Source: Acidobacteriota bacterium
Lineage (GTDB): Bacteria > Acidobacteriota > Terriglobia > 2-12-FULL-54-10
NCBI GenBank assembly: GCA_009691245.1
Contig: SHUM01000020.1
Location: forward strand, 1-54,723
DNA: 54,723 bases
Reading direction: 5' to 3'
A program made the position numbers and the translations under genes. Below the pieces are notes generated by a model, which was not told where the DNA came from, did not search any database, and saw only the letters and a list, made by a program, of their open reading frames with translations. Each line of letters begins with the position of its first letter. Within the stretch, counting starts at the first letter, position 1. This document shows, one piece after another, positions 5,727 to 13,167 of this stretch.

Positions 5727-6839
5727 CTAGTCCACGGCCAGGCGTGCTTCCACTATGCCCATTTCGACGGCTGGCAGGGCGCGGAAGCCCTGCAACTTCC
5801 ACCCAGCCTGCCCCAGTAACTCCCCGTATTGCTTCACGCTGCGCTCCTGCCCATCGCCCCAGCACATCATATGAATGTCATAGAGTTTGGAAAAGTGCGC
5901 CACTTCCGGCCCGGGAATCACGTACTCAAATATCAGCAGCCGCGCGCTGGTCCGGCCGTATTCGAGCGCCGCGCGCCGGACGTTGCCCAGAATCTGTACA
6001 CACTGCGCATCGTCCCAATCGTGCAAGATCAGCTTGAGCAGGTAGAGGTCCGCCGGCGGAACGCCCGCAAACATATCGCCGGCAATGAACGTGCAGCGCT
6101 GATTCAGGTCTACATCGCCCGGCTCGCGTGGCTCGGTTGGATTGGAAGGCCCCGCTTGCGCGATCACCGCAGGCCGCTCCAGGACGGTGCCGCGCAGATG
6201 CGGCTGCACCCGCAACTTTTCCCGCAACAGGCCGCGCAGCAGAGTCCCGCGCCCGCCGCCAATGTCGCAGATGGATTGGATCGAGGTGAAGTCGAAATCC
6301 CCAAGCGCGGCCACTGCCGCAGTGGTCTGCTGCGCGGAGTAGCTGGCCATGGCGGCATCGAACACGCGCGAGTAGGCGGGGTTGCCATCGGCGTATGCAA
6401 AGGCCGTGCCGCCGAACTCGCGCCGGAACGCGTTCTGCCAGCCCTCGCGCACCATCTCCGGCAGGTAGTTCCAGATCGCCGTATGCTCCGGGCTATCCTG
6501 CAAGAGCGCGACATCGCGCAGATTGGCAGGGTGCCCTTTACATAGCAGAAGCCCCTCAGCGTTCAGGAAAAACTCAGTTTCGTCTTTATCTTTTTTATCG
6601 GTGGGTTTATCTTTGGGCCGCTCTTCCAACAGGCCGATGCTGGCCAGCGCCCGCAGCAGGCGGTAGACCATGCGCGCATCAAGCTTTAGTTCACTGGCCA
6701 GTTCGGCGAAGGATTTCCCGCTGGCCTGAAGCGCGTCAAATAGGCCCAGCGCCACCCCGGCATAGAGGATGCGTGACTTCCAACGCCCGAAGATCAGCTC
6801 ATTGACAATTTCTAAACTATTACTTGAAGTTACGCCCAT
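5727..6839 (-). CDS. SAM-dependent O-methyltransferase (Methyltransf_2, hydroxyneurosporene/caffeate OMT type)
   Basis: 370 residues. The N-terminal third is a winged-helix dimerisation domain (SRILYAGVALGLFDALQ, VYRLLRALASIGLLEE). The catalytic part has the SAM motif ICDIGGGRGTLLRGLL, then GDMF and LKLILHDWDDAQC, where HDWDD is the conserved stretch around the catalytic His of this family. Substrate is not predictable; such enzymes methylate hydroxyls of aromatic or polyketide products. It carries a Lys/Asp-rich insertion (KDKPTDKKDKDET, around residue 85). No biosynthetic genes flank it. Confidence 0.8.
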   Translation of the reverse strand: MGVTSSNSLEIVNELIFGRWKSRILYAGVALGLFDALQASGKSFAELASELKLDARMVYRLLRALASIGLLEERPKDKPTDKKDKDETEFFLNAEGLLLCKGHPANLRDVALLQDSPEHTAIWNYLPEMVREGWQNAFRREFGGTAFAYADGNPAYSRVFDAAMASYSAQQTTAAVAALGDFDFTSIQSICDIGGGRGTLLRGLLREKLRVQPHLRGTVLERPAVIAQAGPSNPTEPREPGDVDLNQRCTFIAGDMFAGVPPADLYLLKLILHDWDDAQCVQILGNVRRAALEYGRTSARLLIFEYVIPGPEVAHFSKLYDIHMMCWGDGQERSVKQYGELLGQAGWKLQGFRALPAVEMGIVEARLAVD

Positions 6840-6951: not shown

Positions 6952-7386
6952 CTACTCCACCAAAATATCGACGGTGGTGGTGCCTTCCACGCGGACTTTT
7001 TCGTAGGCCTTCACCCAAACTTCGTGCGCTGGGTGCGTGGCGTAAATGGTCAGCGCGGCTTCGTTATCGAACTCCATGGCCACGCCGTATTCTCGTTGCA
7101 CCTCGCCCAGCTTCAGCGGACGCATCAGCTTGCCCACCCAAACTTTGCGCAGTCCCGGTATCTTGCCCACCAAATCTTTTGTTGCCTTCTCGAATGCGCT
7201 GAAGTCCGCCGGCGTCGCCGTGGGTATTGGTGTGTAGGAAAACACGTGCATCAGCGAACTCAACTTCTTCGCCGGGGCCGGGGCCGGGGCCGACTGCGCC
7301 CAGCCTGTATTCGCGCCCAACAGAATGATCCCGGCCAGCAACAGTGCCGCCGAAATCGATCCAATCAATTTAGTATTTCTGCGCAT
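6952..7386 (-). CDS. Secreted Dabb (stress-responsive A/B barrel) domain protein
   Basis: 144 residues. Signal peptide with cleavage near GWAQSAPA, a short Ala/Pro linker, then one dimeric A/B-barrel domain: LMHVFSYTP, a conserved helix, GLRKVWVGK and YGVAMEFDNEAALTIYATHPAHEVW, the last being the hallmark of Dabb proteins. The ATG at 7386 is preferred because AGGAG lies 9 nt upstream; the ATG four codons earlier abuts that site. Function of exported Dabb proteins is unknown. It is divergent from the beta-propeller gene. Confidence 0.78.
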   Translation of the reverse strand: MRRNTKLIGSISAALLLAGIILLGANTGWAQSAPAPAPAKKLSSLMHVFSYTPIPTATPADFSAFEKATKDLVGKIPGLRKVWVGKLMRPLKLGEVQREYGVAMEFDNEAALTIYATHPAHEVWVKAYEKVRVEGTTTVDILVE

Positions 7387-7580
7387 GATAATCATCTCCT
7401 GTTCACTTACTTTATGTATCGGCGCGCCGCCTATTCCGGCTCAACCACGCCCTTGCAACTGCAATATGGATGTTTCACATTCTACCCGATTTGCTGCCGT
7501 TGCCCTACCCTACTGCGCTATACTGTGCGCGATACCGGCAGTGCTTGCTGCATCCGAGGCACATCCTCCAGGAGAAAAAC

Positions 7581-9740
7581 ATGAGTCATCATCCTTACCA
7601 AAATAGCCGCAACGGTAAAGTTTTCACAGGACTGTTTGTGCTGCTCGCCGTGCTGGCTTCGCTGATTCTGGCCACCGGCGAGCAATCAGCAACCACGATG
7701 TGGCGCTCACAGATGGACGCCATGCGCCGCGCCACCGGCCAGCCGCAGTTGGTGGCGGTGGAGAAACTTTCCGCAACCAACACTGCTTCGCCGGAGGGCG
7801 AGATGTGCCAGTGGCTGCCCGCCAGCTCGTCCACTACGATGACGGCGCTGCAGGAGGCCGGGCACACCGTCAATCCCGCGGACACCGGCAACTCCGACCG
7901 CGAGCCGGTGCGCAAGATACGCGACACCTATCCCACCTACAGCGCCATCGCCGTGAACCTGAAGACCAACGAAGTCTTCCTGCAGGACGAGAACCTTTTC
8001 GGCATCAAAGTTTTTGACCGGACACTGAACACGCCGCCCACCGCCGCCTTCAGCGAGCCGAAGCGCTCCATCGCCGGCGGCGGCGTTACTAAGATGGAGT
8101 TCAACTGCGGCATTTATGTTGACCCGCAGACCGGAGACATTTACTCGGTTACCAACGACACCATCGACACCATGACCGTGTTTCCCTGGAACGCCAAGGG
8201 AGAGATGAAGCCGAAGCGCGAACTCTACACGCCGCACGGGACGTTCGGCATCTCGGTGGATGAAGACGCGCAAGAGATGTACATGACGGTGCAGCATGAC
8301 AACTCCGTGGTGGCTTATCCCAAGCTGGCGCAGGGAGATGACAAACCGGCGCGCGAGATTGTGGGGCCGAAGACGCAGATGAATGACCCGCACGGGGTCG
8401 CCGTCGATTACAAGAACAAACAGTTGTTTGTCAGCAATCACGGCAACGGCATCGTTAAAGCAACGGAGTCGGGCAAGTTTTCGCCGCCGTCGATTACTTC
8501 CTACCCGCTCTACTCGAAAGGCGACACCGCGCCGCTGCGCGTGATTGAAGGGCCCAGGACACGCCTCAACTGGCCGGCCAACATGTGGGTGGACGGCACG
8601 CGCGGCGAGCTTTACGTGGCCAATGACGGCGACGATTCCATTCTGGTATTCAAGACCAGCGATCGCGGCGACGTCGCGCCCACGCGCATTATCAAGGGAC
8701 CAAAGACGCACGTGAACAAGCCCACCGGCGTTTTTCTTGATGAGAAAAATAACGAGCTGTGGGTGGCCAACATGGGCAACCACGCCGCCGTGGTATTCAA
8801 TCGCACGACCACCGGCGACGTCGCGCCGAAGCGCATGATCCGCAGCGCGCCGCTCGAGAAGAAGGCTCTCGCCATCGGCAATCCCGGCGCGGTGGCCTAT
8901 GACTCGACCCGCGATGAGATACTCGTCCCCAACTGAGTGGCGCACGCGCAGATTGCGGCCTTCCCCAGGTTGGCGAAGGAAAATACTCAGCCCAATCGCA
9001 TGATCTCCGGCCAGAATACTTTGCTGGCGCGCACCATGCACGACATCCGCTACGACGCGCTGCACGACGAATTCATCGTCAACAATCCGTTCGCCTACGC
9101 CGTGCTGGTGTTTCGCGGCGGGTCGAATGGCGAGGAGCCGCCGCTGCGCGTGATTCAAGGGACCAACACCAAGATCGGCGGCTCCAGCCGTCTGGAAGTC
9201 GATCCGGTCAACAATGAGATTTTGGTCCCGGAGGGCCGCGCCATTCTGGTGTTCGACCGGCTCGCCAACGGCAACGTCGCCCCGAAACGCCAACTGCTGA
9301 ACGCGGGCAGCGGCGGCGGCATCGCCGTCGATCCTGTACATAACCTGCTGCTGCTCGGCTCCGGCGGCAACAACAAAAATCCGGGGCGCATGAGGATGTA
9401 TAATCGCACCGCCAGCGGCGACGACAAGCATCTGCGCGAAATCTTTGGCCCCAAGAGCGGCATCATCCGCGCGCTGCAGATGCAGGTGTATCCGCCCACG
9501 GGATACATCGCCGTTACGCAGCCGGGCGAGAGCGGAACGTTCGAGCCGGGCGGGACGTTCGTGGGCTTCTGGCACATCAGCGACAATGGAGATGTCCCGC
9601 CGCGCTACAAACTCTCCGGACCCAAGAGCACGCTGATCAAGCCGCGCGGCGTGGCCATCATCCCCGAGCACAAGGAAGTGATCGTGGCCGACATGTCGCT
9701 CAATTCGGTGCTGGTGTATTACTTCCCGGAGATCTTTTAG
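7581..9740 (+). CDS. Secreted/anchored NHL/YVTN-type beta-propeller protein with in-frame TGA (candidate selenoprotein)
   Basis: 719 residues if TGA 8934-8936 (residue 452) is translated. ATG 7581 has CAGGAG 6 nt upstream. An N-terminal hydrophobic segment (FTGLFVLLAVLASLILATG) is followed by about a dozen repeats of the kind GDVAPTRIIKGPKTHVNKP-(T/N)G...NELWVAN, typical of propeller blades. At the TGA the text runs YDSTRDEILVPN-TGA-VAHAQIAAFPRLA, and the same repeat register continues for 267 more residues to TAG 9738. Without readthrough the propeller would be cut mid-blade. The GTG directly after the TGA has no ribosome site of its own. A SECIS-like hairpin follows. I know of no described selenoprotein of this type. 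The alternative is a gene split by a nonsense mutation. Confidence 0.8.
8934..8979 (+). promoter_or_regulatory. Candidate SECIS hairpin of the beta-propeller gene
   Basis: CCTTC (8959-8963) pairs GAAGG (8975-8979). After a C-C mismatch, CC (8965-8966) pairs GG (8972-8973), closing an AGGTT loop at 8967-8971. The loop starts 30 nt after the TGA, inside the range known for bacterial SECIS elements. Its AGGU is like that of the E. coli fdhF loop. Confidence 0.6.
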
Positions 9741-11211: not shown

Positions 11212-13167
11212 TTAATTTCCGCGCGGGCGCGCAATCTCTTCCAGCAAGTCAGGCTGGCCTTCGACACGCTCCAGAAATGGATAGCGCTCTCCGCCGTGAT
11301 ACTCCACGTGAAGCGTGCTATGCCGTTCGTCGCGCTCGATGAGCAGATCAATGGTTGCCGCTGAATGCTGCGCCGCCCGGATCGCCTGCCGCAGCACTTC
11401 GGGAGAAAATTCGAGCGTGTTGATCGCGACCACTCGCATGCCCGCCAGCACTCCGGCACGCGCCGCGGGGCTGCCCTCAAGCACCTCTTGCACACGAATG
11501 CTCTTATCGTCATTCCGGTTCAATATCAGGCCGAGCGAGTGGCGGAAGTCACTGTAGCCGCTGGACAGCTCGTACGTCCGGAACCTCTCCTCCAGCGTGT
11601 CGCGGAAGGACAACTTCCACCCACTCTTCTCGATGCCGCCCAGCGGAGCCTTCGGGGCGCGCCGCTCCACGCGCTCGCGGAAGAACCACTCCCAGTCATA
11701 GCGGACCAGATCGCGCAACGTCTCGATCATCTCTTCATACTTATAGGTAGCCACCTTCGGCGTGCGGATGGACGCGGCGGGCTTGCCCAGGAAACGCCGG
11801 CAGAAATCGTCGAGCGAATAGTTCCCGTGGCTTTCGCTGCGCAGCGTCGCGTCCACCTCCAGCCAGATCAGCGAAGCTTCATCGTAGAAATCGATGCTGC
11901 GTCTGCGGTCGCTGCCCGCGGCGGGCGCTTCAAACTGAATCTGCGCGGACAGGGCGGTATCCTCCAGCGAACGCCACGCGCGACCTGACTGCGCCACCTG
12001 ATTGCCCGCCGTGATAGCCAGGTGCTCACGCAACTCCTGCTCCGACCACAGGCCCGCGCGCACGGGAATGATGGCCTCCAGATAGTCGGTGAGCCCTTCG
12101 TATATCCACAACAACTCCGTGTCCTGCGGTTGCTGGAAATCCGCATTCACCATGCCCGCCGGACGCCGCGCCTTGCCGTTCCAGGAATGCACGAACTCAT
12201 GCGCCAACATCCCGGCGGCGCCGCGCCGTCCACCGTCGGAGCGCAGCGCATCTTCGCCAAGCCGGTTGTCGCTGGATTCGTGATGCTCGAGGCCAAACAG
12301 CGCGATGTGGTCGCTCAGGGCCAGCAGGAAATCGTATTTGTCATAAGGATTGCCGGGTGGACTGCCGCCGAACAGCGCAAGGGCTTCCTCGATCACCCGC
12401 CGGTAAAGTTGCGGGACTTCCGAACTGGATTCGAGCGCGGCCTCGCTGTCGGCGGCGATGTGCAGGCGGTGCGGCACCGGCTGGTCGGTCAGTTGATAAT
12501 TACGGAAGAAGCGGCCCATCAGCACCGGCGAGTCCACCAGCGTGGCTACGGAGACTGACTGAAACTCAATCGCCGATGGCGATGGTCCACTGACCGTCCC
12601 CTTTTGCTCCAAAGCCGTGCCGAACTGCCAGCCCTCGGGGATGATTAATCGCGGGCGGATCGATAATTGCGCCACCGGCCGGCCCGCGGGATAGAGCAGA
12701 ACATAGTGCCAACTTAGAATGGCGAGATGGTCCGTGGAGGAGCGTCCGGCGGAAAATCCTTTTTCCTCGGAAGGCAGCAGAAAGTCCAGTGTAACGCTCA
12801 GCGACTTCGCGCCCGCTGGGACGACGGTGCGGAAAGCGTACAGATCGAGCGGATCGCGCTTCCAGTCCAGCTCGCGCCCCCCGGCCTTCATGCGCAGATT
12901 CACCACGTCGCGCACCGGACCCGTGGGGCCATGCTCGCCGGGAATCCATTTTGGGTAGTAGAGCGTGATGGGACCGGAGTCGGCGGGGATGGTCAACTCC
13001 GCATGCAGCACGCCGCGCGCAGCCTCGCGCGCATCCAGCGTGATCTCCAGCGACTGACCTCGCGCGGTCGCCGGCGCAATCGCCGCCGCAACCAGCGTGC
13101 AGAGCAGAAAGAATATTTGAGGACGCGACCGCCACGTTCGCGCAGCCCTCCACACCATCACCCGCAT
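11212..13167 (-). CDS. M61 family glycyl-type aminopeptidase with PDZ domain, secreted
   Basis: 651 residues. Signal peptide (ending ATARGQS), N-terminal beta domain, then a thermolysin-like catalytic domain with the zinc motif HEFVHSWNGK and downstream LLWIYEGLTDYLEAI, whose Glu is the third zinc ligand. A PDZ domain closes the protein (VLEGSPAARAGVLAGMRVVAI). M61 peptidases remove N-terminal residues, often glycine, from peptides, here in the periplasm or outside the cell. It is a single gene, ending two bases from a family-A repeat. Confidence 0.88.
   Translation of the reverse strand: MRVMVWRAARTWRSRPQIFFLLCTLVAAAIAPATARGQSLEITLDAREAARGVLHAELTIPADSGPITLYYPKWIPGEHGPTGPVRDVVNLRMKAGGRELDWKRDPLDLYAFRTVVPAGAKSLSVTLDFLLPSEEKGFSAGRSSTDHLAILSWHYVLLYPAGRPVAQLSIRPRLIIPEGWQFGTALEQKGTVSGPSPSAIEFQSVSVATLVDSPVLMGRFFRNYQLTDQPVPHRLHIAADSEAALESSSEVPQLYRRVIEEALALFGGSPPGNPYDKYDFLLALSDHIALFGLEHHESSDNRLGEDALRSDGGRRGAAGMLAHEFVHSWNGKARRPAGMVNADFQQPQDTELLWIYEGLTDYLEAIIPVRAGLWSEQELREHLAITAGNQVAQSGRAWRSLEDTALSAQIQFEAPAAGSDRRRSIDFYDEASLIWLEVDATLRSESHGNYSLDDFCRRFLGKPAASIRTPKVATYKYEEMIETLRDLVRYDWEWFFRERVERRAPKAPLGGIEKSGWKLSFRDTLEERFRTYELSSGYSDFRHSLGLILNRNDDKSIRVQEVLEGSPAARAGVLAGMRVVAINTLEFSPEVLRQAIRAAQHSAATIDLLIERDERHSTLHVEYHGGERYPFLERVEGQPDLLEEIARPRGN

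Follow-up and report, generated by a model that had tools for sequence, protein, structure and literature searches.

The gene at positions 7581–9740 (plus strand) of the window, the whole 54,723-nucleotide stretch of acidobacterial DNA analyzed here, very probably encodes a bacterial selenoprotein (probability about 0.9), an exported or anchored double NHL-type β-propeller with SelB-guided selenocysteine (Sec), for which we propose an extracytoplasmic redox function. In the mechanism that we propose, SelB and a hairpin with an AGGUU loop, 24 nt past the UGA, would direct the insertion of Sec at codon 452, after which translation would continue to give a 719-residue protein. The predicted product starts with a hydrophobic stretch, an export signal or anchor, followed by a flexible linker and then a pair of six-bladed propellers of the NHL type. 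It would act as an extracytoplasmic selenoenzyme in which Sec452 performs redox chemistry, tuned by Arg484, His487 and His455, and probably cycles against Cys76 of the flexible linker or Cys176 as the resolving thiol.

An in-frame UGA conserved across a gene family

The frame from 7581 to 9740 has 719 codons and closes with a TAG at 9738–9740. As the preliminary description of this DNA had stated, it is broken by a TGA alone (8934–8936, residue 452) and is otherwise open. The TGA lies in the context DEILVPN-U-VAHAQIAAF. Neighboring genes encode an O-methyltransferase, a Dabb-domain protein and an M61 glycyl aminopeptidase (5727–6839, 6952–7395, 11212–13167 minus), and an obvious functional link to them is absent.

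The organism is a soil-type bacterium, and its own genome (3.43 Mb, 96 contigs) contains 21 strongly similar places, the window gene among them, each with an N-terminal frame of about 360–590 residues followed by a second frame. All 21 have an in-frame TGA in the identical alignment column, with the motif ILVPN-U-VxHPQIAxF. The 20 paralogues align with the window gene through the stop and over the full length, with one exception that is truncated by a contig end. Paralogue L018 (2–2002, minus) has a further TAG in frame and is cut off by the end of its contig; it is either decaying or misassembled.

A wider scan covered one genome per prokaryote species with three search patterns, one of which demanded Cys at the Sec position. 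It returned at least 77 loci, and among the matches listed all belong to Acidobacteria or Terriglobia metagenome-assembled genomes (MAGs). When the own-genome genes and the scan matches listed are taken together, the codon in the Sec column is TGA in 112 of 113 distinct genes and TGC in one, with no other codon present; the 112 comprise the 21 own-genome paralogues and 91 distinct genes from other Acidobacteria MAGs. The preliminary description had proposed this column as the test of a selenoprotein, and no member of the close family lacks both Cys and TGA there. The scan leaned toward Cys forms because of the pattern that demanded Cys, and even so a single Cys gene, L118, was found among the matches listed. 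L118 also has the most decayed hairpin, in which 4 of 6 pairs remain, as expected for a gene that no longer needs a selenocysteine insertion sequence (SECIS). Compared to known selenoprotein families, this family has very few Cys homologues. Distant generic NHL propellers without Sec do exist, and the Sec-flanking motif is absent from these.

Among 396 genomes sampled evenly across the phylum, a search with the Sec region located the family in six, each with one internal TGA among the matches listed. A profile search of the same sample added one further family genome (G234/L132), whose copy is cut before the Sec site, as well as NHL proteins that are more distant, have a single propeller and lack Sec. 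The distribution of the family is patchy, yet it extends across several classes or families. At least 31 distinct copies are present in MAG B32T1B5 (JADFGZ; contigs L048–L124).

Strong purifying selection acts on the coding sequence before and after the UGA. Comparison of eight orthologues with their counterparts in a sister MAG gave a dN/dS of 0.046–0.093 downstream, and the upstream range is alike. Orthologues are about 92–100% identical between species, whereas paralogues within the genome have a median identity of 51%, indicating that the copies are old and separately maintained. Paralogues that have been kept apart for so long probably have different substrates or partners.

Three other readings of the TGA were weighed. 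The least probable, to the point of being negligible, is a sequencing error, which the preliminary description had raised against itself, or a pseudogene. The extra TAG of the L018 paralogue at its contig end would fit such decay, but the TGA is common to 112 independent genes and dN/dS downstream is 0.05–0.09, which refutes both for the window gene. A genome-wide reassignment of TGA, or its reading as another amino acid such as Trp, would account for a frame that is open and conserved on either side, and is nonetheless highly improbable. TGA terminates 43 of the 88 complete relatives in the family as well as several own-genome paralogues, so it is a working stop and the code is not reassigned; moreover, a single residue is affected, and the sole replacement seen is Cys, not Trp. 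Finally, the TGA could be a true stop, with 8937–9740 forming a second gene that starts at the adjoining GTG and supplies one of two subunits of a split propeller. The codon after the TGA is indeed GTG in 108 of the 112 genes, but the other four have GTA, GTT or GTC, and two cannot be ordinary starts. A Shine–Dalgarno-like sequence is absent before the GTG, one blade would be halved, the Cys form is a single uninterrupted frame, and the covarying hairpin described below would be left unexplained. We consider a split gene very improbable, if slightly less so than reassignment. Comparison within the family instead indicates that the UGA is decoded, that the product is full length and that Cys has been able to replace the residue once. 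Sec insertion at codon 452 is, on this genomic evidence, nearly certain.

A covarying SECIS hairpin and the machinery to read it

A stem with an AGGUU loop had been claimed 30 nt past the TGA and is indeed present at 8961–8977 (plus strand; UUCCCC-AGGUU-GGCGAA), with a loop spacing of 30 nt. The window copy has one C·C mismatch in its 6-bp stem and an MFE of −12.7 (z = +1.04), no better than shuffled sequence. Given the mismatch and this stability, the window copy taken alone is ambiguous, and the stability of the single hairpin was rejected as proof.

The alignment is more informative. RNAalifold on the TGA genes returned one eight-pair stem with a five-base loop, 25 nt from the TGA start, and the consensus apical hairpin is UUCGCC-AGGNU-GGCGAA. 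At the six core positions of the stem, 99.0% of cells are paired, and seven cells show double compensatory changes, compared to a shuffle mean of 0.21 and a maximum of 2 in 300 shuffles. Shifting the stem partner by one to three bases abolishes the pairing. The hairpin is thus both kept and covarying, the pattern of conservation for which the preliminary description had called. Codon choice in the same region is constrained beyond the requirements of the protein. Arg463 is encoded by AGG in 100 of 107 genes (93%), although AGG accounts for 3% of the Arg codons in the rest of the 21 genes, while Ala462 is GCC in 102 of 104 and Ala465 is GCG in 105 of 108.

Published limits for bacterial SECIS elements specify a loop of 3–9 nt, a stem of 4–16 bp, a spacing of 16–37 nt, a G in the first two loop positions, an MFE of at most −7.5 and the loop pattern N-G-G/U-N-N with a closing pair (PMC13188914). 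The element falls within all of these, with a spacing of 30, a window MFE of −12.7 and an A-G-G-N-U loop including the closing pair. An Rfam scan of the window gave no match, and the element is not expected in Rfam. Between the UGA and the main hairpin lies a small hairpin at 8946–8958 (plus strand; consensus CCGCA-GAU-UGCGG), in which synonymous codons are fixed (CCG 108/110, GCG 105/107). It is paired in 88% of cells, its covariation beyond shuffles is weak, and the outer pair in the window copy is G-G. This small hairpin is a candidate SECIS part, perhaps of a two-part element.

The genome encodes what is needed for decoding. A tRNA-Sec with a UCA anticodon was found at 73 bits, along with selB (361 bits), selA (552 bits) and selD (358 bits), the protein scores being far above cut-offs. 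In the phylum sample, selA is present in all seven family-bearing genomes; this linkage is consistent but weak, since selA is present in 252 of the 396 genomes. The selD gene of the same genome (L044; C9:54052–54990, minus) also has an in-frame UGA, in the context AAVKAAG-U-ASKLSPK, and this UGA is followed after 19 nt by a hairpin with a six-pair stem, GUCCAA-AGGUU-UUGGAC. SelD belongs to a known selenoprotein family and, unlike the propellers, is cytoplasmic with an unrelated fold. Its AGGUU loop is nevertheless identical to that of the propeller genes, an independent sign of what SelB of this organism recognizes.

Predicted architecture and the site around Sec452

The N-terminus has a hydrophobic segment at residues 14–32 (VFTGLFVLLAVLASLILAT; 7620–7676, plus strand), with a mean Kyte–Doolittle value of 2.54 over 19 residues, and the AF2 model places a helix at residues 12–32. 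This segment is probably a signal peptide or membrane anchor, through which the protein would be exported. A low-confidence, disordered linker (residues 49–101) is predicted after the helix. AlphaFold on the paralogue alignment gave a model with a pLDDT of 84.3 and a pTM of 0.79, containing twelve four-stranded blades. Residues 418–719 (8832–9737, plus strand) fold alone as a full six-bladed propeller (pLDDT 89.9, pTM 0.89), so the protein is most simply a 6 + 6 tandem. Foldseek comparison of the whole length was uninformative because the relative position of the two domains is not fixed, and it was repeated on the second half. The best matches of this second propeller were the NHL domains of TRIM2/TRIM71, with TM-scores of 0.70–0.76.

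Domain searches are in keeping with this fold. The NHL family PF01436 matched at 32.7 bits, above its gathering score of 20, and with regard to function names Pfam and NCBIfam gave weak generic propeller matches only, with no NCBIfam model above its cut-off; the 6-phosphogluconolactonase/YncE model, for example, scored 20.4 bits against a cut-off of 370.

In the model, the second propeller opens with blade 7 of the 12, and Sec452 lies in the b–c loop of this blade, after its second strand. The earlier placement of Sec between blades was therefore inexact, as the residue lies inside blade 7 of the predicted fold. The face bearing the b–c loops is where propellers usually bind ligands. Across 114 proteins, Asn451, the Sec column, Val453, Arg484 and His487 are invariant. 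Arg484 and His487 (each 114/114) form an Arg-Thr-Met-His motif (9030–9041, plus strand) in the blade after that of Sec452. His455 is near invariant (110/114), and further conserved histidines are His219 (98/113), His271 (110/113) and His401 (91/113). By general propeller topology, Arg484, His487 and His455 are expected on the same face as Sec452.

Two cysteines are candidate partners. Cys76 (codon 7806–7808, plus strand) is located in the flexible linker within GEMCQWLP and is Cys in 90 of the 99 members with a residue there. Cys176 (codon 8106–8108, plus strand), at the start of the innermost strand of blade 2 in the first propeller, is Cys in 97 of 112. Every protein with a complete N-terminus (97/97) has Cys at the linker, at position 176 or at both. 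Under independence about 0.8 Cys-less proteins would be expected, compared to none seen (n = 97); since this is close to the independence prediction, a Sec–Cys pair is suggestive only.

Redox catalysis by Sec452 is the function that we favor, with about an even chance of being correct. The main rival, clearly the less likely of the two, keeps the same selenoprotein but makes Sec a ligand for a soft metal (copper, mercury, cadmium or similar). Sec, His455, His487 and perhaps a Cys at the propeller mouth would then serve detoxification, delivery or a metal-dependent enzyme. In line with such a site, many conserved histidines (H219, H271, H401, H455, H487) fall on same-face loops by topology, and the fold matches of the second propeller include peptidyl-α-hydroxyglycine α-amidating lyase (PAL; 3fvz), a six-bladed propeller with a His-bound zinc. 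By topology, the conserved histidines would lie on loops corresponding to those of the zinc-binding His triad in the PAL channel. We also use PAL as a reference for a His/Arg site located at a channel mouth, but it differs in matching at TM 0.59–0.64 only, in having no Sec and in being a single propeller. Two points argue against a soft-metal site: a metal transporter, sensor or chaperone is not recurrent beside family genes, and an invariant Arg484 would be unusual next to a cationic metal site. A function other than redox catalysis or a soft-metal site is unlikely.

Other known propellers differ more clearly from the Sec452 protein. The generic NHL-repeat propellers of Acidobacteria (L131, L134, L135) share the repeat GNVAPxRxIxGxxTxLxxPxxVAVD and an exported-looking N-terminus, but they are single propellers of about 360 residues whose b–c loop has neither Sec nor Cys and in which the VPN-U-VxHP motif is absent. 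The eukaryotic NHL domains of TRIM2/TRIM71 and Brat share the six-bladed fold (TM 0.70–0.76), whereas they are cytoplasmic RNA or protein binders with 15–16% identity and no Sec. SELENBP1, or methanethiol oxidase, is a propeller protein tied to selenium and thiol chemistry but is not Sec-containing; its Pfam family, SBP56, was not among the matches of the window protein at E ≤ 1.

Genomic context and a probable new selenoprotein family

A conserved operon that would indicate a substrate was not found among the family loci. Neighbors are diverse, and include amidohydrolases, a molybdenum oxidoreductase with cytochrome c, TPP enzymes and Oar-like barrels. A sulfite-oxidase-type molybdenum enzyme and cytochrome c occur beside family genes in L051, L095, L105, L109 and L014. 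A conserved exported protein of about 211–258 residues without a Pfam match (L010:6772–7404, minus, with relatives in L053, L059, L069 and L102) recurs near five propeller loci. Oar-like outer-membrane barrels (PF25183), which also have carboxypeptidase-regulatory domains, number at least 65 in the 3.4-Mb genome, for example on C12, C34 and C41. Such barrels flank many family genes, and a TonB-receptor partnership was entertained. It was dropped because the barrels are abundant genome-wide and the adjacency, 6 of 21 family genes compared to about 3.4 by chance on a rough estimate, is about at chance level.

Catalogued selenoproteins are for the most part enzymes of the thioredoxin-fold or metal-redox type, and it was through Cys homologues that they were found. 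The near absence of Cys homologues is the probable reason that the propeller family was missed and that its members would each be divided by gene callers into two hypothetical proteins. A 2026 catalogue holds 119 prokaryotic selenoprotein families, and its Table 1 has no propeller or NHL entry (PMC13188914). The same table includes a TonB-dependent receptor, FCYXU, and an MtrB/PioB-type barrel as predicted extracytoplasmic selenoproteins; these resemble the propeller family in location, but are outer-membrane barrels of unrelated fold. A propeller selenoprotein is likewise not listed in the deep-Sep paper, and none was found by a full-text literature search, with most subscription journals and preprints outside its scope and an earlier description possible. 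The view that no propeller selenoprotein was known agrees with the catalogue and the search. The conserved UGA, the one Cys homologue, the covarying SECIS, the Sec machinery and the purifying selection together support the proposal that the acidobacterial propeller genes constitute a new selenoprotein family.

The largest bacterial selenoproteomes reported have 39 and 46 genes (PMC12013277). With 21 genes in a 3.4-Mb genome and at least 31 in a related MAG, those of uncultured Acidobacteria may rival them. We judge it somewhat better than an even bet that the family is all of the following: an extracytoplasmic Sec enzyme whose Sec–Arg–His active site is of a new type, the first β-propeller selenoprotein family, present as 21 to 31 or more ancient paralogues per genome, and nearly without Cys counterparts. 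If this is true, one non-thioredoxin family would dominate the selenium economy of some Acidobacteria. A new fold would be added to selenium biology, and the role of Sec in a propeller becomes testable.
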